From: Lentimicrobium saccharophilum
GTDB taxonomy: Bacteria; Bacteroidota; Bacteroidia; Bacteroidales; Lentimicrobiaceae
Direction: 5' to 3'
DNA length: 64,000 nt
Assembly (NCBI RefSeq): GCF_001192835.1
Contig: NZ_DF968182.1
Location: 2,327,113-2,391,112, forward strand
In this document: one piece after another, positions 16,549 through 39,732 of the stretch
Position numbering within the stretch: the first letter of the stretch is position 1
Layout: each line of letters begins with the position of its first letter
Notes under the pieces: generated by a model
Told to the model about the DNA's origin: nothing
The model's database searches: none
What the model saw: the letters and a program-made list of their open reading frames with translations, nothing else
Program-made: the position numbers and the translations under genes

Positions 16549-19500
16549 ATGAAGACCTTTTACAGAATTTTCGGGGGGAAACGCGTAAGAAGGGCGCTCG
16601 TGTTATTTGCGCTTGTTTCATCAATACAAGCGATTTCACAGCCATGCTCTGTTCCTACGGAAGCTTTCCTTACAGGTAATGCTACGATTTGTCAGGGTTC
16701 GACCACGGATATATTGATTAATATTTCCGGCGGTGTCGCACCCTGGCGTGTCATATACAGTATTAACGGCGCATTACAGCCCGAAATAACCGGCATTATA
16801 AGCAGTCCCTATATAGTTACAACCGGAACTGCAGGGGATTACAAGATTGAGCAGGTATTGGATGCTGACGACTGTACCGGTGCAATTACCGGCAGTCCGG
16901 TCACCATACAGGTAAATCCCTTCCCCACCTCAGCCGGTGCCATAACCGGAAACGCCGCTGTTTGCCAGTCCACCAACGGGGTATCATATTCAGTTCCGGC
17001 GATCAGCAATGCAACAGGATATATCTGGGCACTGCCTTCAGGAGCAACAATAGCTTCGGGAAACAACACCAATTCCATCTCAGTTAACTTCAGCAGCGCC
17101 GCTTCCTCGGGGAATATCTCGGTTTATGGCACCAACAGCTGCGGAAACGGAGCTTCATCCGGTTTGTTTGTAACTGTTTCTCCCTTACCCGGAGCAGCTG
17201 GTGTTATATCCGGTTCCGCTTCGGTCTGTCAGGGTCAATCAGGGCTTAATTATTCAGTGAGCCCGGTTTCCGGCGCCACCTCTTATGAGTGGGCACTTCC
17301 GGCAGGTGCAACCATTACATCAGGATCAAACTCCAACAGCATCACGGTTTCATATTCCACTTCGGCAAGCTCGGGCCCGGTAGCGGTAAGAGGCATCAAC
17401 AGCTGCGGAAACGGCAGCTGGTCTCCTGATCTTCAGGTTACAGTCAATCAGCTGCCGGGCAATCCCGGTCCTGTAACCGGCTCTTCGGCGGTATGCCAGG
17501 GCCAGACAGGGGTTACCTACAGCGTTCCGGCCATTGCGCTTGCCAATGGTTATGAGTGGACCCTGCCAACAGGCGCCAGCATTATCAGCGGCGCAAACAC
17601 CAATCAGATAACAGTCAACTTCAGCCCAGCGGCGGTTTCCGGCGATATTCTGGTCAGAGGGCTTAACGGTTGCGGAGCCGGCCAGTGGTCGGCTGCTTTT
17701 GCAGTTACGGTGAGCAATCTTCCACTTGCAGCGGGCAATATTACGGGGCCCGCGCTGGTTTGTTCCAATCAGACAAATCTTGTTTACAGTATTGCACCGG
17801 TAGCTTATGCAGCCGGGTATGAGTGGCAATATCCGGCCGGGTTCACAGTGAGCGGACCGTCAAACGGAAGCACCCTCACCCTGAATGCATCCGGCGCTAC
17901 GGCCGGCATCGTCAGGGTACGGGCCGTTAATTCATGCGGCAGCGGCACCTGGTCGCCCGATCTCAGCCTGGCTGTCCATCCTTTGCCAACGGCAAATGCC
18001 GGACCTGACGCACAGATATGCGCCACCGCCAGCCATACCCTGTCAGGAAACGCAACAGATTACAGCAGTGTAAGCTGGAGCAGCAGTGGAAGCGGATCGT
18101 TCGTGAATCAGAATTCCCTGTCTGCAACTTATATTCCCAGTCCTGCAGATGCAGCGGCTGGCTCAGTCGTACTTACACTTACCGTAACATCGGCATCGCC
18201 CTGCATTGGCAGCACAACAGATCAGATGATCCTCACATTACTGTCCCTGCCGGTTGTGAATGCCGGACCTGATTTTTCATCCTGCGGCACTTCTGGTGCA
18301 ACCCTTGGCGGCAGCATGGCCTCCAACTACGGATCTTTGCTTTGGACCACTTCAGGAAGCGGCACCTTCTCAAACCCGGCTGCGCTGCACCCGGTGTACA
18401 ACCCCGACGCCAATGATGTGGCAACGGGATCAGTAACGCTTACATTGACAGCTTATGGAAATGCAGGATGCGCAGGCGAATCAGCCAGCGATCAGATGAC
18501 CCTGTTTCTCAATCCATTACCAGTTGCAAATGCCGGCAATGCCGCATCCACCTGCGAAGGTGAATCATATACCGTCACCGATGCCACGGCTTCAAACTTC
18601 GGGACCCTTACCTGGTCAAGCAACGGCACCGGAACCTTTACCAACAACGGCACGCTGAATCCCACCTATACTCCCAGCCTTGCCGATGCCATCAACGGAT
18701 CGGTAAATCTGACCCTTACCGCCACCCCATTGGCACCATGCCTTGGAAATGCCACTTCGGTAAAGACGCTCAGCATAACCCGCCTGGCTCTGGCCAATGC
18801 CGGACCTGACGGCAACTCCTGTGGCAATACTCCGTTTACCCTCAGCAGTGCTTCAGCCACCAATTATTCTTCACTGTTGTGGACCAGCAGCGGATCGGGT
18901 TCATTTGTAAATCCCGGCATCCTGAACGCCACTTATATTCCCGGAGCAGGAGACCTTGTGAGCGGATCGGTAACCCTTACCCTTACACTTACCGGAAACT
19001 CACCCTGTGCAACTCCGGTTTCAGATGATATGGTACTTTCCATTGGTGGCGAACCCACAGCTTATGCAGGACTTGACGGTCAAACCTGTGAAACCACTCC
19101 TTTTACAGTTACCACAGCAACGGCAACAAATTATTCTGCAATTAACTGGACGACCAGCGGAACCGGTATATTGTCAGATGCCGGATCATTAACACCGACA
19201 TATACACCATCAAACGCCGATGCACTTGCAGGAATTGTAACTTTATCGCTGACCGCTACCGGGCAGGCTCCCTGTACATCGACAATCACCGACATCATGC
19301 AGATTGTCGTCACACCTGCCCCCCTTGCCGACGCAGGGGCCAACTTCTCGGTCTGCAGCAGTAGCAGTTTTACTGTAACCGGGGCAAGTGCACAATATTA
19401 TTCTTCGATCAACTGGACATCATCGGGCACCGGTACGCTGGTAGATGCCAATCAGATAGACCCGACCTATACGCCAAGTGCTGCCGATATCGCCAACGGC

Positions 19501-22500
19501 GCGGTTACCCTGACCCTTTCCGCCATGGGCAATGCGCCCTGTGTTGCACCTGTTGTGGATGCCGTGCTTGTGACAATTAATCAGATCCCTTCTGTTTTTG
19601 CAGGAAATGATCTGGCCATCTGTGAAGGCCCGCATAATGTAACCGGAGCAGTAGCCACCGATTACAGCTCGCTGATGTGGACCAGCAGCGGAGATGGAGT
19701 CTTTATCAATCCCACTTCACTCACCCCGATTTACACACCCGGCCCCGGCGATCTTATCAACGGACTGGTAACACTTACGCTTTCAGCAACATCGCTGCCA
19801 CCATGTGCGGATATCGTTTCTGATGATGTTATCCTGACAATTCGTCCGCTTCCGCTGGTTTTTGCCGGGCCCAACGCCAATGTATGTGAAGGCAGTACCT
19901 ACGAACTGATCAATGCTACCGCAACAAATTACACTTCACTCACCTGGAGTACCAGCGGTTCGGGTAATTTCAACAACATCAACACCCTGAATCCGGTTTA
20001 CACCCCAAGCCTTGCCGATATCGCCAACGGCGCCATTACCTTAACACTCACTGCCACAAATCCTCCTTGTCAGCCTCAGACCAGTGATATGACCCTGAAT
20101 ATCAGGCGCAATCCTGTTGCCAATGCAGGAACTGATGCTCCGATTTGTGAAGGAGAAAGTTACACCGTAAACAACGCAACAGCAACCAATTCGTCATCGG
20201 TTATGTGGACCAGCACCGGCAGCGGAACTTTGCTGAATCCCACCACCCTCACCCCAACGTATATACCTTCAGCCGCCGATATCATGATCGGTTCGATACA
20301 GCTTACCATGACCGCCTATGCGGTTGCTCCTTGTATCATCACCGATACGGATGTGATGGAGATTACCATTACCAACGCTCCTACAGCCTTTGCGGGAAAT
20401 GATGCTACCATTTGCGCAAGCCAGTCGCACACCATTGTTGGCAGCACGGCCGGCAATTATTCTTCGCTCGCATGGTCAACATCGGGCGACGGCGTAATTC
20501 TGGCAGCTAATACGCTGTACCCGACCTATGTCCCCGGTATTATTGACGAATCACTTGGATTTGCCATACTCACACTTACAGCCTACGGTGTAAATCCCTG
20601 CACAGGCAACGCCACCGATCAGATGATGCTCACCGTAGTGAGTGAACCCGGGGTAGATGCCGGACCGGATATTCAGATCTGTATCGGCTCGAATGTTCCG
20701 CTTGCAGGAGCAAGCGCACAAAGCGTATCTTCCGTATACTGGACAACCTCTGGCAGCGGAAGTTTCTCAGATCCTACCCTGGTCAATCCGGTTTACACAC
20801 CCAGTCCGCAGGATATTACCAACGGCAGTGTGATTCTGATGATTACCGGACAAGGCGTTGCGCCTTGCAGTTCCTCCACATTTGATATCATGAACCTGCA
20901 AATCAGCCAGCCTCCGGTGGTGAACGCCGGAAGTGACGGAGAAATCTGCGAAACCGGATCATACTATATTTTTGATGCTTCCGCAACCGATTACTCGGCC
21001 ATCACCTGGACCACCATGGGCGATGGTGTTTTCTCAAATCACAACTCCATCAATCCGACCTATACCCCGGGTCCCGCCGATATTGCAGCCGGATCGGTAC
21101 TGCTCTATCTGAATGCCACCAGTTTATTGCCTTGCAGCGGTTCTGTGAGCGATGCCATGCTGCTTACCATTCATCCCATGCCTACCATTAACGCAGGTGC
21201 AGATGCCGCTACCTGCGAAGGCGATACTTACCTTTTGTCAGGTGCCACGGCACTCGATTACAGCAGCTTGCAATGGACAACTTCGGGTTCAGGCTGGTTC
21301 TCAAACAATGCAGCCTTAAATCCCATTTACACCCCGAGTGCCACCGATATTATCAACGGAAGTGTAACACTGACCCTTACAGCCACCGGATTGCTGCCCT
21401 GCACAGGACAAGTTACTGATCAGATGATACTTACCATCCGCCGTCAGCCGGTTGTCAATGCCGGAGCCGACGAAACCATTTGCGTAGGAACTTTCACCAT
21501 CACTACTGCCTCGGCATCCAATTACAGCACCCTGCAGTGGGTTTCCAGCGGAACATCAGGAACCTTGCTGAATGCAAATACCATAACTCCCACCTACATG
21601 CCGAGTCCGGCTGATATTGCCAACGGATCAGTGGTTCTTACACTTACAGCCAATCCCAATACTCCTTGCGCAGTCCCCGCTGTAGACCAGACGATTATTA
21701 CCATTCGTCCACTGGTTGAAGTAAATGCCGGAGCCGATGTTACCATCTGCGAAACATCAACCTTTACGCCTAACACTGCTTCCGCAACCAATTATAGCGA
21801 CATTCTCTGGACCTCATCCGGAACCGGTTCATTCATCAACGCCAACACACTCACTCCAACGTATACCCCAAGTCCTGCCGATATAGCTTTGGGCTGGGTT
21901 ACCCTCACCATCAGCGGAACCAGTATTGCTCCGTGCAATCAAACCGTAAGCGACAACATGACGCTTACCATCCGCAGGCAGGCCGTAGTTGACGCCGGAA
22001 TAAGCACAACCATCTGCGAAACCGCAACCTATCAGACCTCCCCCGCCTCGGCCATTAACCACACATCATTGTTGTGGTCAACCAGCGGAACCGGAGTTTT
22101 TGCCGACCCAACCATTTTGGTTACTACTTATACCCCAGGTGCAGCAGACATTGCCAACGGAAGTGTTCAGCTTACGCTCACAGCTACCAGCATGGCTCCG
22201 TGCGTCGCACCCATCAGCGACTTTATGGTGCTTACCATTCAGGAAGGGCCTCAGGCAGATGCCGGTATTGATGCCGCTATTTGCGAGAATGAATCCTACA
22301 ATGTAACCACCGCAACTGCCGGCGGATACTCAGGTTTGGTGTGGACTACCAGCGGAAACGGAACTTTTGTTGACGGAACCACACTCAATCCGACTTACAC
22401 TCCGGGCTCTGCAGACATTGCGGCAGGTAGCGCAATACTTACCTTAACCGCCAGTTCAACATCACCATGTACCGGACAGGCAACCGATTCATTTATACTC

Positions 22501-28500: not shown

Positions 28501-31500
28501 TCACTCACACCCACTTATATTCCTTCAAATGCAGACCGGGTAGCAGGTTCAGTAAATCTGACACTGACCCTTCAGGGCGCTGCACCTTGCTTCGGCTCGC
28601 ATACCGATGCCATGACACTGACCATCAGCTCCTTACCCACAGGTTTACCGGTAATCAGCGGACCGCAGGATGTATGTGCCGGCCAGACAGGAGTTGCTTA
28701 TTCAGTAATTCCTGTACAATACGCTACTTCTTACAGCTGGATTCTTCCTTCGGGAGCCACCATTGTTGCCGGAGCCAACACTTCCAACATTGTGGTTGAT
28801 TTCTCGATGTCGGCAGTATCCGGTAACATTTATGTAACCGCTTCAAGTGCATGCGGAAGCGGCCCTGTTTCAGCTGCTTATGCTGTAACTGTCAGTCCTC
28901 TGCCCGGAAATCCAGGTATAATTATGGGACCTGCTACCATTTGCCAGAATACTTCAGGAGTTATTTACTCAATCAATACTGTAAGCGGCGCAACAGCCTA
29001 CCAGTGGACAGTTCCCACAGGAGCAACTATAGTTGCAGGAACCGGTACCAACACCATTACTATTGATTACTCAACAACTGCCATTTCAGGCGATATCACT
29101 GTGACCCCACAGAATTCGTGCGGAAACGGCAATACTTCAACCCTGGCGATAACCGTTAATCCTATGCCTGTTGCTCCGGTAATCACGGCCAACGGACCCA
29201 TTGAATTCTGCGAAGGAGGAAGTGTTGAACTTACTGCAACTGCAGGTTATGCTTCTTATCTCTGGTCGAACGGCATGACCACCCAAAGCATTACTGTAAC
29301 TGCTTATGGCATTTATTCAGTGGTAGCCACTGATGCAGCTGGTTGCGCAAGCCTTCCTTCAAATGAAATAACCGTAAATGTTCACATGCTGTTTGTTCCC
29401 GATGTAACCGCCAGCGGACCCACCGACCTTTGTCAGGGCGAAAGCGTGATCCTCTCTGCACCTGCAGGATATGCATCCTATCTCTGGAATAACGGACAAA
29501 CCTCACAAAGTATCACTGTTACGACGGCCGGAGTATATAATGTTACCGTAACCGATGCCTTTGGCTGTACCAGCCTGCCTTCGGCAGATATTAACGTTAC
29601 AGTGAATCCTTTACCTTCAACCCCGGTAATTACACCCGACGGACCACTCAACTTCTGCGCAGGAGGCAATGTAACCCTTTCGGCACCGGCCGGATATGCA
29701 TCCTACCTTTGGTCAAACGGTGAAACTACCCAGAGCATTCTGGTTACTTCAAGCGGAGTATTCTCGGTAACAGTAAGTGATCTTTCCGGATGCACCAGCT
29801 TGCCATCGGCATCGGTAACCGTTAATGTGAATCCTTACCCTGCAACGCCGGCCATTGTTGCCAATGGCCCGACTACATTCTGCAACGGGGGCAGTGTGGA
29901 GCTTACCGCAACCCCGGGATATGCTTCATATCTCTGGTCAAACGGCGCCACCACCCAAAGCATAACTGTAACAGAAACCGGATCATATACCGTAATTGTA
30001 ACCGACAACATCGGTTGTTCAAGTCAGCCATCGGCACCGGTAAGTGTAACAGTACTGCAGCCACCCACACCAACCATCGTAGCCAACGGACCATTGATGT
30101 TCTGCAGCGGCGGCAGCGTTGTGCTCACAGCTCCGGCCGGATATGCAGCGTATCTGTGGTCTAACGGAGAAACTACCCAAAGTATTACCGTCACTGTTTC
30201 CGGAAGTTATACGGTTCAGGTAACCGATGCCAACGGATGTCTCAGTGATCCTTCAAATATTATTGATGTTACTGTTTATTCGCCTGCAACACCTCCGGTG
30301 ATCGTAGCGCTCGGCCCCACAACCATCTGCGATGGTGAATCGGTAACCCTCTCAGCTCCTGCCGGATATTCGGCCTATTTCTGGAACAACGGACAATCCA
30401 CGCAGAATATCCTGGTAAGCACCGCCGGAAATTATTTTGTCACGGTAACTGACGCGAATGGTTGCACATCGGCACCTTCCAATACAATAACAGTAACGGT
30501 AATTCCTCAACCTGATGCGGATGCCGGATCGAATGCAAGCATTTGTGCAGGATCGGATTACACCATCACCGGAGCCTCAGCCAGTAATTATTCCACCCTC
30601 TTATGGACAAGTTCCGGATCAGGCTACTTTGTGAACAACGGGAACCTCGATGCAACCTATGTGCCTTCGGCCGGCGATATTTCAACCGGTAGCGTAATGC
30701 TTACGCTTTCAGCCGTCGGATTCGGACCCTGCACCATGGCAGCAGAAAGTTCCATGCTACTGAGCATATCCAATGCGCCCACAGCTTACGCCGGGACTGA
30801 CTTCAACATCTGCGAAGGCGGCAACATCAATATTTCTCTTGCCACTGCCAGTTATTATCAGTCTTTAAGTTGGTCAACCACCGGTTCGGGCCTGTTCCTG
30901 AACGGTAATACGCTTACACCAACCTATATCCCCAGCGCACTTGATATCAGCAGCGGACTGGTTTCCCTTACATTAACCGCCTGGCCAATGGCTCCATGTG
31001 CCAATCCGGCAACGGATGCCATTTTGGTAACAATAAACCGTGCACCCCAGGTGTTTGCAGGCAACAACACAAGTCTTTGCCCGCCTGACCAATACACCAC
31101 CCTTGATGCCACGGCAAGCAATCACACCCACCTGCTCTGGACAACCAATGGTACCGGAACGTTTACCGATCCTACTTCATTGGTGACCGTATACAGCCCG
31201 AGTGCTGCCGACATCAGCAACGGATCGGTAACCCTGACACTCACCGGCTACGCAAACAGCCCGTGTTCAAATGTAAGTGACGATATCGTTCTTGTTCTCG
31301 TGCCCTCCCCTGTAGCAGATGCCGGACCTGACCGCCTGATCTGTGAAGGTGAAAACGTTATTGTCAACGGAACTGCAACAGGATACCAGTCTGTCTTCTG
31401 GACAACTTCTGGCAGTGGTACCATTGTCAACGGAAATACATTAACACCAACCTACATTCCGAGTGTTGCCGACATCAACAACGGGTGGGTGACACTTACC

Positions 31501-34500
31501 CTTACAGCAAATCCGTTGGCTCCGTGCGCAGTACAGGCCATTGATGCCATGCAGCTGAACATCACCCGGACTCCTACGGTATTTGCAGGCAGCGACATCA
31601 GTTTATGCCCGGCAGACCCTTATACCACAAGCACTGCAACAGCTTCAAACTATAGCTACATTGAGTGGACAACCACCGGCACGGGCACTTTCTCGGGCCC
31701 CAACAACCTGGTAACCGTTTACACCCCGTCAGCAGCAGATATTACCAATGGTACTGTTACCCTGACTTTGACCGGATATGCAAACAGCCCGTGTTCACCG
31801 GCAAGCAGCAATATTGTGCTTTTACTTTCAAATCCTCCGGCAGCCGATGCCGGCCCTGATCACCTGATCTGCGAAGGCAGCATGGTAAGTATTACCGGAG
31901 CATCTGCTTCCAACTACCAATCACTGAACTGGGCTACTTCCGGAACCGGAACATTTATCAACGGCAATTCACTCACCCCAACCTACCTCCCGAGCATTGC
32001 CGATATCACAAACGGCACAGTAATCCTGAGCCTGACAGCAACCCCGGTTTCTCCATGTGCAACCACCGCCAGTGATGCGACCACCGTCACCATTTCGCGC
32101 AATCCTCAGATCTTTGCCGGTGACGATACCACCCTTTGTCCGGCAGGCCCGTACACCACCGCTTCTGCCACAGCTGCTTTTGCAGCCATGCTTGAGTGGA
32201 GCAGTAACGGAACCGGATCCTTCAGCGATGAATATGCACTGGTAACAATTTACAATCCGTCAGCACAGGATATCGCCAACGGAACCGTAACCCTTACCCT
32301 TACAGGTTATGCCAACGCTCCATGCGGCAATGTCAGCGACGATATAATCCTGAATCTCTCCATGCCTGCAGCAGTCAATGCAGGTGCAGACGTGACCATT
32401 TGCGAAGGAATGCAGCATACCATTTCCGGAGCTTCCGCTTCAAACTATCAGTCAATCAGCTGGATAAGCAGTGGAACCGGAGTGATTATGAACGGCAATA
32501 CACTGAACCCCACTTACATCCCCAGCATGGCAGATATTACCAACGGGGGAGTGATTCTCAGTCTGATTGCCACACCGCTGGCCCCATGCACCGGAAATGT
32601 GACCGATGCCATGCAGTTGACCATTGTACGCACGCCTCAGGTATTTGCCGGAAACGATGCGGCCATCTGTCCTCCCGGATCCTATACCATCAGCGATGCA
32701 ACGGCCTCGAATTATCTGGCGTTGCAGTGGACCAGCAGCGGCACAGGAAGTTTTTCGAACAATGCCACCCTGGTTACCATTTACAATCCATCACCGGAAG
32801 ATATCGCCGCAGGCACGGTGACCCTGACGCTGACAGCTTTTGCCGGCTCCCCCTGTGCCAATGCTTCTGATGACATTGTTCTCTACTTTGTACCTGAAGC
32901 TATGGTCAACGCCGGCGCCGATGCAGTGATCTGCGAGGGTTCCCAGTTTATGGTTACCGGAGCTTCAGCCGCCAACTATTCAAATCTTACCTGGAGCACC
33001 AGCGGAACCGGAGTTTTCGTGAACAACGGAACCGTAACACCTACCTACATCCCGAGCGGAGCTGATATCAGCAACGGTATGGTGATACTCACACTTACCG
33101 CTGATCCCGTTGCCCCCTGTTCCATTCAGGCTGCCGATGCCCTCATTCTTACGATTAACGCTGCTGCCCAGGCCAATGCAGGTCCAAACGGACAGGCATG
33201 CTATGGTGACAACTTCTATCTTGCAGGAGCCTCAGCAGCAAATTATTCCGATATTCTCTGGACCAGCTCGGGTACGGGAAGCTTTACCAATCCTACCGAG
33301 GTAAATGCAACCTACATCCCTTCGGCTGACGACCTTGCCGCAGGAAATGTTACCCTGACGCTGACAGCCTTTGGCAACAGCCCCTGCGGGGATCAGTCTG
33401 ACTTTATGGTACTTTCCATCACCCCCGGCGCTACCGTTGATGCAGGTGATGACCTGAATATCTGCTTTGGCCCCGCACCTGTTTCCGGAGCAACCGCCAC
33501 GAATTATTCAAGTCTGCAATGGACGGTTTCATTCGGATCCGGCATGCTGGTGAACGCCGGCAACATCATGCCAACCTATATTCCAGGTGCCGCTGACCTG
33601 ACAAACGGATATGTGATCCTCACACTTACCGTCAATCCGCTGGCTCCCTGTACCGATCCGATCGCCGATAACAAGACCCTTACCATCAGTGAAACACCGC
33701 TGGTCGATGCAGGACTTGATGAAACCATCTGCGAAGGTTCGACCTATACCATCAACGATGCCTCAGCATCAAACTACGCAATGCTGATGTGGAGTTCATC
33801 GGGAACCGGTACCTGGGTAAACGTCAATACCCTGAATCCTACCTATACGCCGAGCGCAGCCGATATTGCTGCCGGTTCGGTAGTGCTGACACTTTCCGCT
33901 ACCAATGGCGCCTGTCCCCAGATATCGGATTACAAGCAACTGAACATTCAAAGGGAGGTTATGGTTAACGCAGGTATGGATGATGCTATTTGTGAAGGAT
34001 CATCCTATATGCTGACGACTGCCTCGGCTGCAGGATACAGCAATCTGCTGTGGTCAACATCAGGTTCGGGAACCTTTAGCAATGCCAATGCTCTAAATTC
34101 GGAATATATCCCAAGCCCGGCCGATATCGCTGCCGGCAGCGTAGTGCTGACTTTAACCGGTATTTCATCCATGCCATGTTCAGGAAGCGATTCCGATGAT
34201 ATGACATTGTTTATCAGATACGCTCCGGTAGCCGATGCAGGCACCGACGGGCAGATCTGCCAGGGAGAACAGTACATCATTGCCGATGCGATCGCCTACG
34301 ATTATGCTACGGTTATCTGGACCACAAGCGGTACCGGAACTTTCATCAACGGATCATCGCTCACGGCAACCTATATCCCCAGCCCGGCCGATATTTCCGC
34401 TGGCAGTGTCACCCTGACGCTGGTTGCTTCCAATCCACCATGTGCCGATGCTACCGACAGCCAGTCTCTAACCATTGTTCCGTTGGCACAGGTAAACGCC

Positions 34501-37500
34501 GGACCGGATGCAACAATCTGCAAGCTTTGCAGCCACACGGTTTCCGGAGCATCTGTCTCCAATGCCTTAAACTTTAGCTGGTCGTCCACCGGGACCGGGA
34601 CCTTTGTAAATGGCAATACCCTTACCCCGACCTATCAACCAGACGCCGGAGACATTTCCAACGGCTCGGTCACACTGATTCTGACGGCTGAGAGCGCCTC
34701 AGGTTGCGGCAGCTACAGCGATGAAATGGTCATCTATATCAACCAGACTCCGGATCTCGAATTTACCTGGAGCCCGGTTTGTGCCGGCCAGCCAACCGAT
34801 TTCGTGGTTGATCCGACGGTTACTGACATCAATGCTATTGCTGTATGGCACTGGAATTTCGGTGACGGATTTTATTCCAATGAAATGAATCCGACGCACA
34901 CCTTCCCGGCCCCGGGCGTTTATAATGTAACACTCACAGCAACAGATACTTCAGGATATTCATCCTTACTCACTCATATCGTTGAGATCAACAGCACGCC
35001 CATCGCCTTCTTCAGCTTCGATACCCCCAACTGCATGGGAGAATCAACACAATTCCACAACCTGTCATCGACTGAAAATGGCTATATTACACGCTGGGTA
35101 TGGAATTTCGGCGACGGATCTGCAACGGATACCATATACTTCCCCAATGATCCAAATGTTGAGCACACCTATGCCAATCCGGGCATCTTTGAAGTGACGC
35201 TCAATGTGCTGAACTCCTATGGCTGTGAAAACACCTGGTCAACACAGGTAACGGTTACACCCAATCCGGTTGCCAATTTCTACTATACTACCGTTTGCGA
35301 AGACCTTCTGGTGAATTTCCAGGATGCCTCCTTCCCCAACGGGGCAGGCAATGTAGTGAGCTGGGCATGGAATTTTGACGATCCCGCTTCCGGAATCTTC
35401 AACACATCCGACCTTGAAGATCCGCAGCACCTCTTCAGTGCACCCGGCACCTATAATGTGACCCTTACAGTTACCAATTTCAACAACTGTACAGGTACCA
35501 TCACCAAGGAAATCACCGTGGGAGAACTGCCTCCGGTGGAATTCACCTGGGAAACCTCATGTGCTGAATCCCTTACCAGCTTCTTTGCCGACGCTACTGT
35601 AATAAATGTAAATGCAATTGCAGAGTACTTGTGGGAATTCGGTGACGGAGGTCAGTCGAACCTGCAGGATCCGCAGCATATGTATGCCGCTGCCGGAGAA
35701 TACACTGTTGTATTGACTGTAACCGATACAGCAGGATGCAGCAATTCAGTAAGCCATCTGGTTTCTGTCAGCGCGTTACCGGTTGCCTTCTTCAGCTTCA
35801 GCGAGCCCAGCTGCTATGAGACCACAACTATTTTCAATGATCTGTCATACGCTTCAAGCGGATATATAACAGAATGGGAATGGATTTTCGGAGATGGCAA
35901 CAGCGAAACTGTGACATTCCCCGGCAATCCGAACGTTGAACACCAATATGCCAATGCAGGTGTTTACAATGTCACCCTGAACATCACCACATCTGAAGGT
36001 TGCGAAAACACCGTTACCCGCCAGGTAGTGGTTGCTCCCAATCCGGTAGCCAACTTTGATGCTGCCACGGCTTGTCTCGGCGAACCGGTTGTATTTACCG
36101 ACCTTTCGCAGACCAACGGCGGCGGAAACATCATCAACTGGGCCTGGGATTTCGGCGACCCGACTTCAGGGGTAAACAACACTTCAACGCTGCAAAATCC
36201 ATCGCACACGTATGCACAACCCGGCACATATACAGTCAGCCTGATTGTGACAACAACCAACACCTGTGCCGACACAACTACTATGGACATTACCATAGCA
36301 CCGGCTCCGGTTGTTGACTTCGTATTTACCAATGCCTGTTCAAACGATACCATTCAGTTTACCAGTTCGACCTTTGTAAATCCCGCTACCACCCTCACCT
36401 GGTTCTGGGAGTTCGGCGACGGCACCACTTCGGTGGAAGCTGATCCTCAGCATATCTATGCTACTCATGGTATTTTCACCGTCAGCCTGACCATTACCGA
36501 TGACCAGGGTTGTACTGCAACAGTTATTCATCCGGTAAGTGTGGTTCCCGGCCCGCAGGCAATGTTTGGATTCAATGCACCGGCCTGTTCAGGCTCTGAG
36601 GTGCAGTTCAACGACCTGTCCGTAACCAATGGCAGCGTGATCACCTCATGGTTCTGGGACTTCGGCGACGGCAATACACAACTGGTCACCGCGCCGGGCA
36701 ACCCGAATGTAAGTCATGTTTATGCCAATGCCGGTGTATATACCGTAACACTGACCATTACAAACCTGCAGGGTTGCGATGCTTCTGCAAGCATGAATGT
36801 GGTGATTGTACCCGGCCCTGTCGCTGAATTCACTTTCGACGAAGGTTGCCAGGGAACGCAGGTGGCATTTACCGACCTTACAGCTACCAATGGCGGAACA
36901 ACCCTGGTGCAGTGGCTCTGGAACTTCGGCGATCCTGCTTCAGGCATAGCCAACACCTCCAATCTGCAGCATCCGGTACATATCTTCAATGCCGCCGGGA
37001 CCTACACGGTAACCCTTGAGGCAACAAGTGCCAGCGGATGTATCAGCAGTGTACAGCACGATGTGGTCATCACACCTCCGCCGGCTGTGGCCTTTATCAT
37101 CTCCTCCGGAACCTGCGTCAGCGAACCGGTAACATTCGAGCCTGATACCGCGATTATGGACCTTTCCTCCATTGCATCTTTCGAATGGAACTTCGGTGAC
37201 GGAACTCCTGTTTCAAATGTCACTTATCCGGTTCATGTTTACAACGTTGCCGGTAGTTTCCAGGTAACGCTTACCGTATTCAACAACGACGGCTGCTCCA
37301 ACAGCATCACACAAACCGTGAACATCGGCGCCATCCCTGTAGCCGCCTTCAGCTTTGTAAGCGGCTGTACAGGAAACACAACCAGTTTCAGTGACCTGTC
37401 ATATGCTGTAACCGGTGAACAAATCATAAGCTGGTTCTGGAATTTCAACGATCCGAATGCAATGCCCGGTACAGATACTTCTACCATGCAGCATCCTGAT

Positions 37501-39732
37501 TATCGCTACTCAGCTCAGGGATTGTATGATGTGACGCTTACTGTTACTTCGGAAAGCGGTTGTCAGGGCAGCATCACCATGCCGGTTCAGATATTCCCGG
37601 CTCCGGTGGCAGCTTTCAATTACACTACCAATGCCTGTTCGAACGGCTCGGTTTACTTCCAGGATGCTTCTTCAAGTTATATGGGAGCCATCACCAACTG
37701 GGACTGGACCTTTGCGCCCGGATACACTTCAACGCTTCAGCACCCGCATCACAACTTCTATCATACAGACAGCTGCTACAATGTGCAACTGGTTGTAACT
37801 GATATGCGCGGCTGCGTGGATACCCTGGTTCAGGAAGTATGCATTCCTGCCGGCCTCCAGGTTGAGATTGAGCATTCAGTAACCTGTCACGGCGACACCA
37901 CCCTGTTTAATCCGGTTCTGATTGCGCCGGCCGGTGATTCACTCGTGGAATTCCAATGGAACTTCGATGATGCAGCTTCAGGCATTCACAATACCTCAAC
38001 CCTGAGCAACCCGGCCCATTTCTTCCAGAACACCGGTTCTTATCTGGTTTCGCTGATTGCCACCGACATCAACAACTGCCAGACAACCGTCTACAAGCGG
38101 GTGGATGTGCTTGAACTCCCGGTTGCCGCATTCAGTTACTCCGCCGGTTCCTGCGACAGCACCCTTTACTTCAGTGACCTGTCGAACGGCAATGGTGCTG
38201 ACATCGCCGAATGGATCTGGAGCTATGGCGACGGTACATCCGACACCCTTACCTCAGGCCCGGCAGATACCAGCCATTTCTATCACACTTCGGGCATCTT
38301 TACGGTGAGCCTTACCACCATTTCGGAACATGGCTGCATATCGGTATTTACACAGGATGTTGAACGCATGCCATGCATCAGCGCGGTATTTGCATCAGTC
38401 GACACCCTGAGCTGCGAGCGGCACGCCCTTACATTCGAGGATTACTCGGTTTGCGGCAATCCGATCGACAGGTGGGAGTGGATTTTCGGCGACGGTGACA
38501 CCCTGGTTTACAATGAGCCACGTCCTTCAGTAACCCATACCTATCAACTGAGCGGCAGCTATCATGTCAGCCTGATTGTGTCGACCACCGTTTCGGGCAA
38601 ATCGGTCAGCGATACCACAACCATCACTGTTAACGTGCTTACATCTCCTGTTGCAGAATTCTTTGCTCCGGATGTTTGCCTGAACAGCAACACCATCTAT
38701 ACGGATCAGTCGGAATGGACCGATTCAAAGATTGATCAGTGGTTCTGGGATTTCGGCGACCCCAATTCGGTTTACGACACCACATCTGCACGCAATCCGG
38801 CATACAGGTATGACAGGCCGGGCGTTTACAATACCCTGCTGACGGTCACCAATGTACTTGGCTGTACCGATACCATCAGTCATCCGCTGACCGTGCACAA
38901 TCTGCCGGAAGCCAACTTCAGTTACACTCTGGCTTGTCAGAACAACCACACCTTGTTCACCGACCTTACCGAAACCGGTGATACCCTGATCGGACAATGG
39001 TGGTGGAGATTCAGCGATTCGCTCAATATGCTTGGTCTTGCCGGTGTTCAGAACCCGCACTTCGTATTTGAAAATACCGGAACCTATAATGTTGAACTGA
39101 TTGTGGTTGACAACTTTGGTTGTCGCGATACCGCATCCAGCGCCCTGGTTGTCAATCCCAAACCCACCAGTGCCTTCTCATTGACCGAGAATTATGAAAA
39201 TACACAGGGCAGGGTTCTCTTCACCAACGGCTCCATTGGCGCAACAGCTTATGAGTGGGATTTCAGTACCGGTATTCAATCATTCGAAATCGAACCCGTG
39301 GTTGATTTCCCCGGTGACGGAACCTACGAAGTTACCCTGGTATCGATCAACGAGTTTGGTTGCCCTGACACCCTGAAGGTTGATTACAGCCTGATGTTCA
39401 AAGGACTGTGGGTGCCCAACGCCTTCTCACCCAACAACCCGAATGCATCCGTAAGGCTCTTCAAACCGGTAGGTATCAACCTGAGCAGTTATACCATTGA
39501 GGTTTATGACACCTGGGGCAACCTTCTCTGGACTTCGAGTGAACTGGATGCCAATGGCGCTCCGGCCGAAGGATGGAACGGCGTGTTCAACGGAACCCTG
39601 CTGCCTCAGGATACCTACATGTGGAAAGCCACCGCCATCTTTAAGGACGGGACCATCTGGAGAGGCAACGATGTGGGTGAGCGCAACAATATACCCGAAA
39701 AAACCTATGGCACCGTAACGCTGATCAGGTAA
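16549..39732 (+). CDS. Giant multi-repeat surface protein with T9SS type B (CHU_C) sorting domain
   Basis: A single uninterrupted frame of 7,727 residues. Order: signal peptide (1-30, cut near QAIS/QPC); one Ig-like domain (~31-127); 4 PKD-like domains (128-481); 40 two-cysteine repeats of ~89 residues (482-4031); 2 PKD-like (4032-4207); 6 Ig-like domains (4208-4656); 16 more two-cysteine repeats (4657-6069); 18 PKD domains with WxFGDG/FGDP cores (6070-7621); gliding-motility/CHU_C-type sorting domain (7622-7727, starting VPNAFSPNN and ending KTYGTVTLIR). It should be exported by Sec, then T9SS, and held on the cell surface as an extended fibre. An adhesion or gliding role like SprB is inferred from architecture and from the adjacent PorP/SprF gene. 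No enzymatic domain is seen. I prefer the ATG at 16549, which directly precedes the signal peptide; 16507 would add 14 residues. Confidence 0.93.
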   Translation: MKTFYRIFGGKRVRRALVLFALVSSIQAISQPCSVPTEAFLTGNATICQGSTTDILINISGGVAPWRVIYSINGALQPEITGIISSPYIVTTGTAGDYKIEQVLDADDCTGAITGSPVTIQVNPFPTSAGAITGNAAVCQSTNGVSYSVPAISNATGYIWALPSGATIASGNNTNSISVNFSSAASSGNISVYGTNSCGNGASSGLFVTVSPLPGAAGVISGSASVCQGQSGLNYSVSPVSGATSYEWALPAGATITSGSNSNSITVSYSTSASSGPVAVRGINSCGNGSWSPDLQVTVNQLPGNPGPVTGSSAVCQGQTGVTYSVPAIALANGYEWTLPTGASIISGANTNQITVNFSPAAVSGDILVRGLNGCGAGQWSAAFAVTVSNLPLAAGNITGPALVCSNQTNLVYSIAPVAYAAGYEWQYPAGFTVSGPSNGSTLTLNASGATAGIVRVRAVNSCGSGTWSPDLSLAVHPLPTANAGPDAQICATASHTLSGNATDYSSVSWSSSGSGSFVNQNSLSATYIPSPADAAAGSVVLTLTVTSASPCIGSTTDQMILTLLSLPVVNAGPDFSSCGTSGATLGGSMASNYGSLLWTTSGSGTFSNPAALHPVYNPDANDVATGSVTLTLTAYGNAGCAGESASDQMTLFLNPLPVANAGNAASTCEGESYTVTDATASNFGTLTWSSNGTGTFTNNGTLNPTYTPSLADAINGSVNLTLTATPLAPCLGNATSVKTLSITRLALANAGPDGNSCGNTPFTLSSASATNYSSLLWTSSGSGSFVNPGILNATYIPGAGDLVSGSVTLTLTLTGNSPCATPVSDDMVLSIGGEPTAYAGLDGQTCETTPFTVTTATATNYSAINWTTSGTGILSDAGSLTPTYTPSNADALAGIVTLSLTATGQAPCTSTITDIMQIVVTPAPLADAGANFSVCSSSSFTVTGASAQYYSSINWTSSGTGTLVDANQIDPTYTPSAADIANGAVTLTLSAMGNAPCVAPVVDAVLVTINQIPSVFAGNDLAICEGPHNVTGAVATDYSSLMWTSSGDGVFINPTSLTPIYTPGPGDLINGLVTLTLSATSLPPCADIVSDDVILTIRPLPLVFAGPNANVCEGSTYELINATATNYTSLTWSTSGSGNFNNINTLNPVYTPSLADIANGAITLTLTATNPPCQPQTSDMTLNIRRNPVANAGTDAPICEGESYTVNNATATNSSSVMWTSTGSGTLLNPTTLTPTYIPSAADIMIGSIQLTMTAYAVAPCIITDTDVMEITITNAPTAFAGNDATICASQSHTIVGSTAGNYSSLAWSTSGDGVILAANTLYPTYVPGIIDESLGFAILTLTAYGVNPCTGNATDQMMLTVVSEPGVDAGPDIQICIGSNVPLAGASAQSVSSVYWTTSGSGSFSDPTLVNPVYTPSPQDITNGSVILMITGQGVAPCSSSTFDIMNLQISQPPVVNAGSDGEICETGSYYIFDASATDYSAITWTTMGDGVFSNHNSINPTYTPGPADIAAGSVLLYLNATSLLPCSGSVSDAMLLTIHPMPTINAGADAATCEGDTYLLSGATALDYSSLQWTTSGSGWFSNNAALNPIYTPSATDIINGSVTLTLTATGLLPCTGQVTDQMILTIRRQPVVNAGADETICVGTFTITTASASNYSTLQWVSSGTSGTLLNANTITPTYMPSPADIANGSVVLTLTANPNTPCAVPAVDQTIITIRPLVEVNAGADVTICETSTFTPNTASATNYSDILWTSSGTGSFINANTLTPTYTPSPADIALGWVTLTISGTSIAPCNQTVSDNMTLTIRRQAVVDAGISTTICETATYQTSPASAINHTSLLWSTSGTGVFADPTILVTTYTPGAADIANGSVQLTLTATSMAPCVAPISDFMVLTIQEGPQADAGIDAAICENESYNVTTATAGGYSGLVWTTSGNGTFVDGTTLNPTYTPGSADIAAGSAILTLTASSTSPCTGQATDSFILTVNAAATANAGADASVCEGTGLVILDATADNYSTINWSTSGTGSFSNGSTLSPTYFPSSEDVTNGTVVLTLTAASAVPCTLPAADTKVVTVVPMPEVNAGPDDVSCGMALYNITGATASDYASLLWTTSGSGVFTNATALNPSYQPSAADVAAGSVTLTLAAISATPCPSNPSDSFILTLEEEAAANAGADASVCEGNIYIVFDATASNYSAINWVHNGSGVLTGGNTLTPSYTPSAADALAGSVTLQLTAIGNAPCGDVTDTKIITVSPLPLVNAGPDATICFGSGYTLSLATAQHYSSVLWSTSGSGTFSNPALLNPVYTPSAADLLAGQVILTVSVDATAPCTGSVSDFMILIFEEGPLANAGADATICEGSVFTVSTASASNYLSLMWTTSGDGSFALANTLTPTYTPGTADLLTGFVTLTLSAYGNPPCTEHSDEMLLTFAEAVTANAGTDVTICEGETVIVADASAQHYNNVLWTSSGSGVLNNETTLTPTYYPSAADISAGSVVLTLTAYGQAPCGGSAVDGKLITINAAPQVNAGPDATLCQGSSHTISGATATGTSSLNWTSSGSGSFSGNGTLTPTYTPSLADFTLGSVTLTLTGNAVSPCSTPATDGMILTLVPAATANAGSDATICETQSFTVSTASASNYSSIAWTSSGSGTLSGATTLTPTYTPGAADITTGSVVLTLTAISGAPCSNPVSDQMIITIDQEPEAYAGADATICEGQQHTITGATATTGLVFNWMSSGTGTFLNQNTLTPTYIPSAADVAAGSVTIGLSVQGTGACNMLVTDDMLLTINRMATVNAGPDATICEGFTYTLSGASAANYASVTWTTSGSGSFTNPAIVNATYNPSAADIANGSVVLTIQATAAGVCAGSVSDLMTLTFNTLPVVNAGPDVTSCDAAVTLSGATASNYSSLLWTSSGTGTLSNSTTLSPTYVPSAADLAAGFADLTLTAQATAPCTGSTSDVVRINLNQGPVVNAGNDGSICAGNTFAINGASAVHTSLITWSTSGSGTFSNPNIINPVYTPGASDIASGSVVLTLTGIPVSPCSAPATDQLLLTITPVATAFAGTDDVTCSSSYLVTGATASNYSSFTWTSSGTGSFINQTTLTPTYLPSAADVANGSVVLTLEVMSNAPCSQLVTDSKLLTLMNEPLANAGVDASVCAGSTYMVTTATASGYSSLNWSTSGSGSFSGQNTINPVYTPSAADIANGSVTLTLTATAASPCSNTASDQMVLTIQRAATANAGSDAAICEGNTHTLSGSVSNSTLFSWSSSGTGTFANGSTLTPIYTPGAADITAGSVTITLTAFATAPCSTPATDIMVLTFTPQPQIFAGADAVSCGSDYTISDATASNYNTLSWSTSGTGTFINPGSINPTYVASLADISSGSVTLTLTATGNSPCINNVSNALVLSFAPIPTVSAGSDDAVCGNSSYTLTGASAANYSTITWSTSGSGTFSNTTLVNPEYYPSAADIAAGSVVLTVTATSLAPCNTTASDNMALTFNLTPQANAGPDANSCGTASFQVTGATASNYATIYWTHNGTGTISGANTISPVYTPSQGDVTTGQVTLTLHATAIAPCTGEVTSAMNLNLQAGPLANAGADVSVCEGQSYTLSGATASGFATLLWSTGGSGTFSNTAALNPVYYPSAGDIANGSVTLTMTLQGAPPCNTVAADFMVLTIQGLPFADAGADDVACGSSYQLINASAANYSSVNWTSSGTGFFSNSALVNPVYTPSAGDIATGSVTLTLTATGVSPCINQTASQMELTIGATVTASAGVDGSTCGTTPFTVSTSSASNYSGINWTTSGSGTFANQNSLNPTYTPSAGDVALGAVTLTMHVQGNSPCFTNLQDNMLLTILNTATAYAGPDAQVCNGSSYTVTGATATNYAAVSWSTTGTGTIVSGNTLNPTYIPSAQDYLNGNVILTLTAVSTAPCSGNISDEMVLTFADGPLANAGPDAEICFGSSYNVTGATASGYTTLNWTSSGTGTLVNATSLTPTYIPSNADRVAGSVNLTLTLQGAAPCFGSHTDAMTLTISSLPTGLPVISGPQDVCAGQTGVAYSVIPVQYATSYSWILPSGATIVAGANTSNIVVDFSMSAVSGNIYVTASSACGSGPVSAAYAVTVSPLPGNPGIIMGPATICQNTSGVIYSINTVSGATAYQWTVPTGATIVAGTGTNTITIDYSTTAISGDITVTPQNSCGNGNTSTLAITVNPMPVAPVITANGPIEFCEGGSVELTATAGYASYLWSNGMTTQSITVTAYGIYSVVATDAAGCASLPSNEITVNVHMLFVPDVTASGPTDLCQGESVILSAPAGYASYLWNNGQTSQSITVTTAGVYNVTVTDAFGCTSLPSADINVTVNPLPSTPVITPDGPLNFCAGGNVTLSAPAGYASYLWSNGETTQSILVTSSGVFSVTVSDLSGCTSLPSASVTVNVNPYPATPAIVANGPTTFCNGGSVELTATPGYASYLWSNGATTQSITVTETGSYTVIVTDNIGCSSQPSAPVSVTVLQPPTPTIVANGPLMFCSGGSVVLTAPAGYAAYLWSNGETTQSITVTVSGSYTVQVTDANGCLSDPSNIIDVTVYSPATPPVIVALGPTTICDGESVTLSAPAGYSAYFWNNGQSTQNILVSTAGNYFVTVTDANGCTSAPSNTITVTVIPQPDADAGSNASICAGSDYTITGASASNYSTLLWTSSGSGYFVNNGNLDATYVPSAGDISTGSVMLTLSAVGFGPCTMAAESSMLLSISNAPTAYAGTDFNICEGGNINISLATASYYQSLSWSTTGSGLFLNGNTLTPTYIPSALDISSGLVSLTLTAWPMAPCANPATDAILVTINRAPQVFAGNNTSLCPPDQYTTLDATASNHTHLLWTTNGTGTFTDPTSLVTVYSPSAADISNGSVTLTLTGYANSPCSNVSDDIVLVLVPSPVADAGPDRLICEGENVIVNGTATGYQSVFWTTSGSGTIVNGNTLTPTYIPSVADINNGWVTLTLTANPLAPCAVQAIDAMQLNITRTPTVFAGSDISLCPADPYTTSTATASNYSYIEWTTTGTGTFSGPNNLVTVYTPSAADITNGTVTLTLTGYANSPCSPASSNIVLLLSNPPAADAGPDHLICEGSMVSITGASASNYQSLNWATSGTGTFINGNSLTPTYLPSIADITNGTVILSLTATPVSPCATTASDATTVTISRNPQIFAGDDTTLCPAGPYTTASATAAFAAMLEWSSNGTGSFSDEYALVTIYNPSAQDIANGTVTLTLTGYANAPCGNVSDDIILNLSMPAAVNAGADVTICEGMQHTISGASASNYQSISWISSGTGVIMNGNTLNPTYIPSMADITNGGVILSLIATPLAPCTGNVTDAMQLTIVRTPQVFAGNDAAICPPGSYTISDATASNYLALQWTSSGTGSFSNNATLVTIYNPSPEDIAAGTVTLTLTAFAGSPCANASDDIVLYFVPEAMVNAGADAVICEGSQFMVTGASAANYSNLTWSTSGTGVFVNNGTVTPTYIPSGADISNGMVILTLTADPVAPCSIQAADALILTINAAAQANAGPNGQACYGDNFYLAGASAANYSDILWTSSGTGSFTNPTEVNATYIPSADDLAAGNVTLTLTAFGNSPCGDQSDFMVLSITPGATVDAGDDLNICFGPAPVSGATATNYSSLQWTVSFGSGMLVNAGNIMPTYIPGAADLTNGYVILTLTVNPLAPCTDPIADNKTLTISETPLVDAGLDETICEGSTYTINDASASNYAMLMWSSSGTGTWVNVNTLNPTYTPSAADIAAGSVVLTLSATNGACPQISDYKQLNIQREVMVNAGMDDAICEGSSYMLTTASAAGYSNLLWSTSGSGTFSNANALNSEYIPSPADIAAGSVVLTLTGISSMPCSGSDSDDMTLFIRYAPVADAGTDGQICQGEQYIIADAIAYDYATVIWTTSGTGTFINGSSLTATYIPSPADISAGSVTLTLVASNPPCADATDSQSLTIVPLAQVNAGPDATICKLCSHTVSGASVSNALNFSWSSTGTGTFVNGNTLTPTYQPDAGDISNGSVTLILTAESASGCGSYSDEMVIYINQTPDLEFTWSPVCAGQPTDFVVDPTVTDINAIAVWHWNFGDGFYSNEMNPTHTFPAPGVYNVTLTATDTSGYSSLLTHIVEINSTPIAFFSFDTPNCMGESTQFHNLSSTENGYITRWVWNFGDGSATDTIYFPNDPNVEHTYANPGIFEVTLNVLNSYGCENTWSTQVTVTPNPVANFYYTTVCEDLLVNFQDASFPNGAGNVVSWAWNFDDPASGIFNTSDLEDPQHLFSAPGTYNVTLTVTNFNNCTGTITKEITVGELPPVEFTWETSCAESLTSFFADATVINVNAIAEYLWEFGDGGQSNLQDPQHMYAAAGEYTVVLTVTDTAGCSNSVSHLVSVSALPVAFFSFSEPSCYETTTIFNDLSYASSGYITEWEWIFGDGNSETVTFPGNPNVEHQYANAGVYNVTLNITTSEGCENTVTRQVVVAPNPVANFDAATACLGEPVVFTDLSQTNGGGNIINWAWDFGDPTSGVNNTSTLQNPSHTYAQPGTYTVSLIVTTTNTCADTTTMDITIAPAPVVDFVFTNACSNDTIQFTSSTFVNPATTLTWFWEFGDGTTSVEADPQHIYATHGIFTVSLTITDDQGCTATVIHPVSVVPGPQAMFGFNAPACSGSEVQFNDLSVTNGSVITSWFWDFGDGNTQLVTAPGNPNVSHVYANAGVYTVTLTITNLQGCDASASMNVVIVPGPVAEFTFDEGCQGTQVAFTDLTATNGGTTLVQWLWNFGDPASGIANTSNLQHPVHIFNAAGTYTVTLEATSASGCISSVQHDVVITPPPAVAFIISSGTCVSEPVTFEPDTAIMDLSSIASFEWNFGDGTPVSNVTYPVHVYNVAGSFQVTLTVFNNDGCSNSITQTVNIGAIPVAAFSFVSGCTGNTTSFSDLSYAVTGEQIISWFWNFNDPNAMPGTDTSTMQHPDYRYSAQGLYDVTLTVTSESGCQGSITMPVQIFPAPVAAFNYTTNACSNGSVYFQDASSSYMGAITNWDWTFAPGYTSTLQHPHHNFYHTDSCYNVQLVVTDMRGCVDTLVQEVCIPAGLQVEIEHSVTCHGDTTLFNPVLIAPAGDSLVEFQWNFDDAASGIHNTSTLSNPAHFFQNTGSYLVSLIATDINNCQTTVYKRVDVLELPVAAFSYSAGSCDSTLYFSDLSNGNGADIAEWIWSYGDGTSDTLTSGPADTSHFYHTSGIFTVSLTTISEHGCISVFTQDVERMPCISAVFASVDTLSCERHALTFEDYSVCGNPIDRWEWIFGDGDTLVYNEPRPSVTHTYQLSGSYHVSLIVSTTVSGKSVSDTTTITVNVLTSPVAEFFAPDVCLNSNTIYTDQSEWTDSKIDQWFWDFGDPNSVYDTTSARNPAYRYDRPGVYNTLLTVTNVLGCTDTISHPLTVHNLPEANFSYTLACQNNHTLFTDLTETGDTLIGQWWWRFSDSLNMLGLAGVQNPHFVFENTGTYNVELIVVDNFGCRDTASSALVVNPKPTSAFSLTENYENTQGRVLFTNGSIGATAYEWDFSTGIQSFEIEPVVDFPGDGTYEVTLVSINEFGCPDTLKVDYSLMFKGLWVPNAFSPNNPNASVRLFKPVGINLSSYTIEVYDTWGNLLWTSSELDANGAPAEGWNGVFNGTLLPQDTYMWKATAIFKDGTIWRGNDVGERNNIPEKTYGTVTLIR
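16930..17991 (+). repeat. Four PKD-like (PKD_6-type) domains
   Basis: Four in-frame tandem units of ~88 residues. Each starts near AxGxITGxAxVCQ and has YSVPxI..A.GYEWxLPxGAxIxSGxNxN in the middle and NSCGxGxWSPxLxVTVxxLP at the end. There are two or three cysteines per unit. Two more copies occur at 28642-29169, separated from these by the 40-repeat block. Confidence 0.85.
17992..28641 (+). repeat. Block 1: 40 tandem ~89-residue two-cysteine repeats
   Basis: Forty units by my hand count, mean 88.75 residues (~266 bp). Consensus landmarks: (A/V)NAGxDAxICEG at the start, TGATASNYSSL then W(T/S)(S/T)SGSGTF in the middle, LxPTYTPSAADIAxGSV then LTLTA, and a closing xAPC followed by D.M.LTI. Almost every unit has exactly two cysteines, near residues 9-10 and 71-72. 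The units are clearly homologous as protein but not near-identical as DNA. Lysine is almost absent (five in about 3,550 residues). Confidence 0.92.
28642..29169 (+). repeat. Two PKD-like (PKD_6-type) domains
   Basis: Two units of the same type as at 16930-17991 (GPQDVCAGQTGVAYSV, then YSWILPSGATIVAGANTSN). They interrupt the architecture between the long two-cysteine block and the Ig-like block. Confidence 0.82.
29170..30516 (+). repeat. Six tandem Ig-like domains
   Basis: Six units of ~75 residues with the pattern P.I.A.GP..FC.GGSV.L.A, then AGYASYLWSNG.TTQSI, then V...G.Y.V.VTDA.GC.S.PS. Such Ig-like domains are common in Bacteroidota surface proteins. Each has two cysteines, consistent with the usual intradomain bridge. 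Confidence 0.85.
30517..34755 (+). repeat. Block 2: 16 two-cysteine repeats, partly a dimeric higher-order array
   Basis: Sixteen further units of the block 1 family, mean ~88 residues. From 30784 to 33171 two subtypes alternate for nine units. Type A has ICEG, GNTLTPTYIPS and A(I/T/S)DAM-like endings. Type B begins (V/I)FAG(N/D/S), has LCP instead of CEG, YTT, LVT(V/I)Y.PSA and GYA(N)SPC...SDDIVL. The true repeat period there is ~177 residues (~531 bp). Units after 33172 return to the ordinary type. Confidence 0.9.
34756..39411 (+). repeat. Eighteen tandem PKD domains, first nine as a trimeric array
   Basis: Eighteen PKD units of ~86 residues, each with a W.W.FGDG or W.W.FGDP core and a later G.Y.V.L.V....GC strand pair. 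The first nine (34756-37086) repeat in threes. Member 1 has NAIA..W.FGDG. Member 2 has GYIT.W.W.FGDG...NPNVEH.YANAG and GCEN. Member 3 has N.I.WAW.FGDPASG..NTS.LQ.P.H. The trimer period is ~259 residues (777 bp). Later units are more diverged; the last merges into the sorting domain. Confidence 0.9.

Follow-up and report, generated by a model that had tools for sequence, protein, structure and literature searches.

The closest described counterparts of the locus analyzed here are the gliding adhesin SprB of Flavobacterium johnsoniae and its partner SprF. SprB is a protein of 6,497 aa (PMC9870892) that is bound by SprF (PMC9143113), and the periplasmic C-terminal tail of SprF carries a CXC motif that forms a disulphide with Cys343 of GldK; this bond is required for gliding, as are both cysteines of the motif, while PorG of Porphyromonas gingivalis functions with a single tail cysteine (PMC12635249). 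Type B cargo of the type IX secretion system (T9SS) is reported to depend on cognate PorP/SprF shuttles, with some cargo moving and some static; in F. johnsoniae a static adhesin is associated with a PorE-like gene, which the operons of the dynamic adhesins lack (PMC12618676). A limited literature search found no published rule linking tail cysteines to static or moving cargo, and in the available text of PMC12618676 the word "cysteine" occurs in references only.

Organization of the fibre gene

The window, a stretch of 64,000 nt from Lentimicrobium saccharophilum, covers C1:2327113-2391112 of a 4.51 Mb genome in two contigs (G000) and contains no N. Its longest open reading frame (ORF) runs from 16507 to 39732 (+) and encodes 7,741 aa; when read from 16549 it gives 7,727 aa plus a stop in a single frame. 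The latter start is favoured because the motif M[KR]T...IFGGK is common to all 12 complete frames of the genus, G000 included. The features of the gene and of the anchor gene that follows it are:

16549..39732 (+): gene of the giant fibre, 7,727 aa followed by a stop; single frame with the start motif found in 12/12 complete frames
16549..16641 (+): N-terminus resembling a signal peptide, with a basic stretch and a hydrophobic core, read by eye
16642..16923 (+): N-terminal Ig-like domain, presumably distal, assigned by eye; no Pfam model match
16924..17988 (+): 4 PKD_6 domains (PF19408, 4 stretches, E 7.6e-78)
17992..28638 (+): 40 two-cysteine units, U1-U40, of 87-90 aa; both cysteines in every unit
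28639..29163 (+): 2 PKD_6 domains (PF19408, 2 stretches, E 3.9e-40)
29179..30516 (+): 6 Ig_7-like domains (PF19081, 71 bits), by composition with zero lysine or arginine
30517..34755 (+): 16 two-cysteine units, U41-U56, partly a two-unit higher-order repeat by lag-2 against lag-1 identity
34756..39366 (+): 18 PKD domains (PF18911, 18 stretches, E 1.3e-232)
39412..39729 (+): T9SS type B-like C-terminal sorting domain with marginal scores (PF13585, TIGR04131)
39773..40885 (+): PorP/SprF-family outer-membrane anchor, 370 aa (PF11751, E 6.4e-40), 40 bases 3' of the fibre gene
40862..40882 (+): anchor C-terminal tail ELECCPF with invariant cysteine 367 (15/15 anchors; 16/16 with that of genome G005 added)

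When the protein was parsed with HMMs built from its own units, 86 units were obtained in the order K4 R40 K2 I6 R16 D18 (K, PKD_6; R, two-cysteine; I, Ig_7-like; D, PKD), the 87th domain being the N-terminal Ig-like one, which no model matches and which is 48-99% identical to its counterpart in 11 homologues. A preliminary description of this DNA had counted about 87 domains, and that total stands, although its tally by type conceals the interleaving of the blocks. Pfam gathering scores were passed by PKD_4 (753 bits) and PKD_6 (257 and 136 bits), whereas the sorting domain lies close to the cut-offs: PF13585 (CHU_C) gave 31.4 bits in one scan and 26.4 in another against a cut-off of 27, and TIGR04131 gave 28.1 against 35. 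An AlphaFold2 (AF2) model of the last 229 residues reached a pLDDT of 47; the C-terminus is conserved across 15 aligned rows (own included). Pfam and NCBIfam scans detected no enzymatic domain, which backs the original description of a type B surface fibre devoid of one, and among the Pfam matches at E 0.01 there was none to PF13573, which we take to be the entry for the SprB repeat. Within the PKD block, identity at lag 3 (0.37) slightly exceeds that at other lags (0.31-0.36), as for a faint three-unit higher-order repeat that is clearer in G002 and G018.

The protein is larger than SprB, as had been stated, but it was wrong to place it near the top of known bacterial protein sizes: a protein of 39,678 aa has been published (PMC10066038) and G000 itself contains a frame of 9,894 aa, so size was rejected as the headline point. 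Of the residues in the fibre, 0.9% are lysine or arginine (22 K, 48 R), and over the 12 complete frames the range is 0.9-1.6%. Seven neighbouring proteins reach 8.9-12.4%, and a T9SS-tailed neighbour cut by the window edge has 5.3%. This scarcity would resist trypsin-like proteases; a plain alternative is the cheap amino-acid composition reported for secreted proteins (PMC12863079). The window also ends within a protein (62072-64000) that has GEVED and fibronectin type III domains and a Por secretion tail; likely another T9SS cargo, it runs off the edge.

A linked anchor with a tail cysteine

The preliminary description left out the adjoining anchor with its tail cysteine, and also the gliding genes. 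The anchor gene follows the fibre gene in 15/15 genomes inspected, with gaps of 24-42 bases in the 14 others, so that the fibre has the linked PorP/SprF shuttle expected of T9SS type B cargo. None of 15 fibre anchors has CXC in its tail (0/15); the tail follows the pattern ELxC[CTS]PF, with CC in some genomes.

We compared 78 PorP/SprF proteins from 19 genomes of the genus. The fibre anchors form one clade, and all 16 carry the terminal tail cysteine. Members of the sister clade are immediate neighbours of gldJ in 18/18 genomes and have an IKCPRF tail in 16 of them (not in G018 or G015). By contrast, in two further clades, to which the anchors next to two other proteins of G000 with a C-terminal sorting domain belong, terminal cysteines were found in 0/10 and 0/10, and in the clade of the PorP that adjoins gldK in G000 there is none beyond the last strand (0/19), though 10/19 have one inside it. 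Five anchors were outliers; among these, a cysteine is present near the end of G011_C13 and in the last strand of G012_C58. The gldJ-side anchor of G000, with the tail IKCPRF, lies at C2:1015520-1018100; upstream of it on the opposite strand (C2:1011445-1015245) is a 1,267-aa protein with a Peptidase_C25 domain of gingipain or PorU type.

After each of the two cysteine-less adhesin anchors of G000 comes a gene encoding TPR, PD40 and OmpA domains, a combination that we take to be the PorE layout. When one PorE-like protein of G000 was used as the query across the 19 genomes, a match was found directly after 9/10 and 10/10 anchors of the two cysteine-less clades (19/20, the miss being G009:C98), but beside 0/16 fibre anchors and 0/18 gldJ-side anchors. 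In the window the next ORF of at least 100 aa after the anchor is a CitMHS_2 gene on the opposite strand. Less than 2 kb of contig remains past the fibre anchor in four genomes (G002, G003, G007, G008); in the positive cases the match starts about 60-120 bases past the anchor match, so the start of a PorE-like gene would be visible even there. The fibre thus resembles the SprB-type gliding adhesins in having no PorE-like gene in its operon, and across the genus the tail cysteine and the PorE-like neighbour nearly exclude each other.

The genome also encodes T9SS and gliding proteins. SprA (2,698 bits), GldK (599), GldJ (482) and GldB (233) all score over cut-off in G000, and GldJ does so in 17/19 genomes of the genus. 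Cysteine 317 of the G000 GldK lies in GCFLANF, aligned with GCFLGNF of PorK, and judging from its spacing probably occupies the position of Cys343.

We propose, with a probability of roughly 0.65, that the fibre is an SprB-like T9SS type B surface adhesin that is probably coupled to the gliding track through the tail cysteine of its anchor, and is not fixed through PorE. This reading is favoured because the fibre has a type B-like sorting domain; because an anchor gene adjoins it in every genome inspected; because the tail cysteine is present in 16/16 fibre and 16/18 gldJ-side anchors compared with 0/20 in the two cysteine-less clades and 0/19 in the PorP clade beyond the last strand; because a PorE-like gene follows 19/20 of the cysteine-less anchors and none of the fibre anchors; because the bond between the SprF CXC and GldK offers a precedent, with an aligned GldK cysteine and SprA, GldK, GldJ and GldB present; and because the gene has a dN/dS of 0.08-0.11 and a repeat unit that is modelled at a pLDDT of 94.6 (see below). 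It is weakened by the single tail cysteine (CC in some anchors) in place of CXC, for which the precedent is PorG and not SprF; by the unreported SprB repeat; by the marginal sorting domain and its poor model; by the two gldJ-side anchors without a terminal cysteine; and by the one cysteine-less anchor without a PorE-like neighbour. The type species of Lentimicrobium is presumably non-motile, which also counts against it.

Some of the same observations suit a static adhesin or matrix fibre, exported by the T9SS and held by its PorP/SprF protein but uncoupled from the moving track, which would bind cells together or to particles and in which the tail cysteine would have another role. Static type B cargo does exist (PMC12618676), a single cysteine differs from the CXC of SprF, and movement of the fibre is something that we infer. 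Nevertheless, we regard a static fibre as unlikely, given that the tail cysteine occurs in every fibre anchor, the PorE-like gene of static anchoring is absent beside all 16 of them, and GldJ is over cut-off in nearly all genomes of the genus.

Predicted fold and distribution of the two-cysteine unit

The 56 two-cysteine units of the fibre are on average 46% identical (range 32-67%) and share 10 invariant columns that include both cysteines (56/56 units); all 505 units of the 12 complete frames retain both cysteines. Among U41-U56, identity at lag 2 (0.525) exceeds that at lag 1 (0.416), and within U42-U50 (30784-33171) two subtypes, ICEG and [LI]CP, alternate as a two-unit higher-order repeat.

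The preliminary description suggested looking for this repeat in domain libraries and modelling single units. No Pfam or NCBIfam model exceeded its cut-off on the unit, and searches of the PDB with four units and a profile gave no credible sequence match, a profile match to a toxin chain at E 1.3 being taken as chance. AF2 prediction of three units, from an alignment of 52 triplets of the same protein, reached a pLDDT of 94.6, each unit containing about six strands and a single short helix. The unit is predicted to be an Ig-like sandwich, and each is probably closed by one disulphide.

GhpA is the grappling hook of Aureispira, and when the model was compared with the PDB using Foldseek the base of GhpA (9fly) ranked second (E 3.8e-11, 18% identity, TMq 0.46), raising the idea that the fibre is a capture fibre of this type. 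The other 49 of the best 50 of 1,673 rows are cadherin-type ectodomains, so the match appears to reflect a generic β-sandwich. GhpA was also absent among the PDB sequence matches of the four two-cysteine units, the two-cysteine profile and the C-terminal 1,658 aa, and we therefore consider a grappling hook very improbable.

Profile comparison with hhalign gave no support for kinship of the two-cysteine unit to PKD_6 (E 0.041) or PKD (E 0.045); against the Ig_7-like units of the fibre it gave E 0.0013 at a probability of 18.6%, with the cysteines aligned. The unit was found in 25 of 41 genomes in a set of relatives (own included), comprising 19/19 of the genus and 6/22 others of the order, and in 32/395 genomes sampled across the phylum (own included; many of these matches are weak). 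Although it occurs this widely, the unit is absent from the domain libraries searched, and it is an undescribed repeat, predicted to be Ig-like.

Conservation of the array

In 16/19 genomes of the genus the last 409 aa of the fibre have a strong homologue (E <= 1e-171); the three without one (G001, G006, G015) are 79-89% complete. A search for plasmid-borne relatives gave 23 records, none of which spans 80% of the same region. Complete frames are either long (7,461-7,906 aa; G000, G013, G004, G010, G011, G012, G002) or short (4,045-4,735 aa; G007, G008, G014, G016, G018), and four are incomplete because they contain N (G009, G017) or run off contig ends (G003, G005). The long form has the layout K4 R40-42 K2 I6 R16 D18, with G010 (K1) and G002 (K5 R44 K2 I6 R6 D24) as exceptions, and the short form has K0-1 R17-19 K2 I3 R4-6 D18, with D24 in G018.

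When the 86 units of the window were paired with those of other genomes, reciprocal best matches of the same type were found for 86 units in G013, 85 in G004, 83 in G010 (of its 83), 85 in G011 and 85 in G012, and 83-86 of these matches per genome were in order. The number falls with distance, to 58 in G002 and 37-38 in the short forms (of their 44-52 units). Paired units in the five close long forms are 74-99% identical, compared with about 45% between different units, and the identities of the units therefore predate the split of these species. By sequence comparison, then, the array is frozen, its layout kept nearly domain for domain in the closer relatives, and a giant repeat protein can evidently be a fixed object that is maintained unit by unit.

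The fibre is under purifying selection, with dN/dS of 0.11, 0.09, 0.09 and 0.08 against G013, G004, G010 and G012, respectively, with dS close to saturation in the last two comparisons; against G004, the maximum for any unit with a computable ratio is 0.23. Per-unit dS against G004 (17722-34755) ranges from 0.15 to 2.7, with the high values near saturation, and its partly block-like arrangement is a hint that the gene may have recombined with divergent alleles.

The first nine units are less conserved in G004, G010, G011 and G012 (means of 65-76% compared with 74-93% in later blocks), but in G013 they are not less conserved than the rest. Three of the nine are missing from G010, some PKD units are equally divergent (58-63%), and the first three units of G004 are 89-93% identical to those of the window; the variable part is for these reasons better described as a segment near the outer end than as the extreme tip. 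This pattern is consistent with a stalk whose outer part, where binding might take place, varies more. The term "pure spacer" used in the preliminary description thus says too little, since the units keep their own identities across species and the N-terminal ones are less conserved in four of the five long-form relatives.

G000 appears to contain a second repeat gene that carries the two-cysteine unit. At C1:3068424-3114282 a frame of 9,894 aa with four single N contains arrays of HYR (15 stretches) and of Calx-beta (19 stretches), and 74 two-cysteine units begin in this frame and continue in other frames past larger N gaps. At the start of the contig (C1:1-9200) there are 20 more units, a type B sorting domain, a cysteine-less anchor and a PorE-like gene; the frames are interrupted by N gaps and the contig end, and the two parts may belong to one gene. 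Among the 64 clean units located at the contig end, identity averages 72% and reaches 100%, which points to recent expansion, unlike the frozen array of the fibre.

Broken frames and N gaps of this kind could suggest that the fibre gene, too, is an assembly or annotation artefact, with repeats falsely joined or several genes taken as one, but the chance of this is negligible given that the window has no N, the gene in G013 (a genus-mate possibly from the same sequencing project) is likewise 23,181 bp long with 290 substitutions and no indel, there are 12 complete frames in the genus, and dN/dS is low across the gene. TRF detected no tandem DNA repeats within it, and since no two of its two-cysteine units are more than 67% identical, an assembler would meet no near-identical stretches that it could collapse or join wrongly. 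Repeat collapse, false joining and frameshifts, which the preliminary description had named as the ways in which its claim could fail, were thus looked for and not found; the uninterrupted frame of 7,727 residues is upheld by the ORF scan, the common start motif and the identical length in G013, and the gene is genuine.

Discussion

If the fibre is a track-coupled adhesin, it would be exported through the SprA translocon and kept at the surface by a dedicated PorP/SprF-type barrel, encoded by the next gene, and would project as a rod of about 87 β-sandwich domains with its N-terminus outward, some 350 nm long if a domain contributes about 4 nm. The periplasmic tail cysteine of the anchor would probably bond to GldK, and the fibre would then be carried along the gliding track rather than being fixed through PorE.

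A broader proposal, which we put forward tentatively and at slightly under even odds, is that giant type B adhesins of Bacteroidota fall into two classes: those whose anchor has a cysteine tail and no PorE-like neighbour, which would be bonded to GldK and carried on the track, and those with a cysteine-less anchor, which would be static because a PorE-like protein links them to the wall. The genus would have both, and the fibre would be a track-driven member made of an undescribed Ig-like two-cysteine repeat, with unit identities older than the split of the long forms. If this is true, the tail cysteine would be the other half of a possible rule in which PorE-like genes mark the static class (PMC12618676), and it would join the division between static and moving cargo to the disulphide mechanism of PMC12635249. 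Because the two features nearly exclude each other within one genus, the rule could be tested with few constructs.

The locus can be set against four known systems. The two-cysteine unit resembles Ig_7 (PF19081) in its weak profile similarity, with aligned cysteines, to the Ig_7-like units of the fibre, but it lies below every Pfam cut-off and the similarity is too weak for membership. GhpA is, like the fibre, a large bacterial surface protein of β-sandwich domains and is second among the best 50 of 1,673 Foldseek rows, but it has no sequence match with the parts of the fibre that were searched and the fold match is generic. The static adhesin of the Fjoh_3952 type is likewise a type B cargo served by a PorP/SprF shuttle of its own; Fjoh_3952 adjoins a PorE-like gene (PMC12618676), whereas the fibre has none, though two other anchor clades of the genus do. 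SprB and SprF are the nearest match: a giant T9SS type B adhesin (PMC9870892) with a PorP/SprF-family anchor (PMC9143113), a cysteine in the anchor tail, no PorE-like gene in the operon (PMC12618676), and GldJ and GldK in the genome. The fibre differs in its two-cysteine, PKD_6 and PKD repeats, in its Bacteroidales host and in having an anchor tail of ELxC[CTS]PF where SprF has CXC; movement of the fibre is a prediction.
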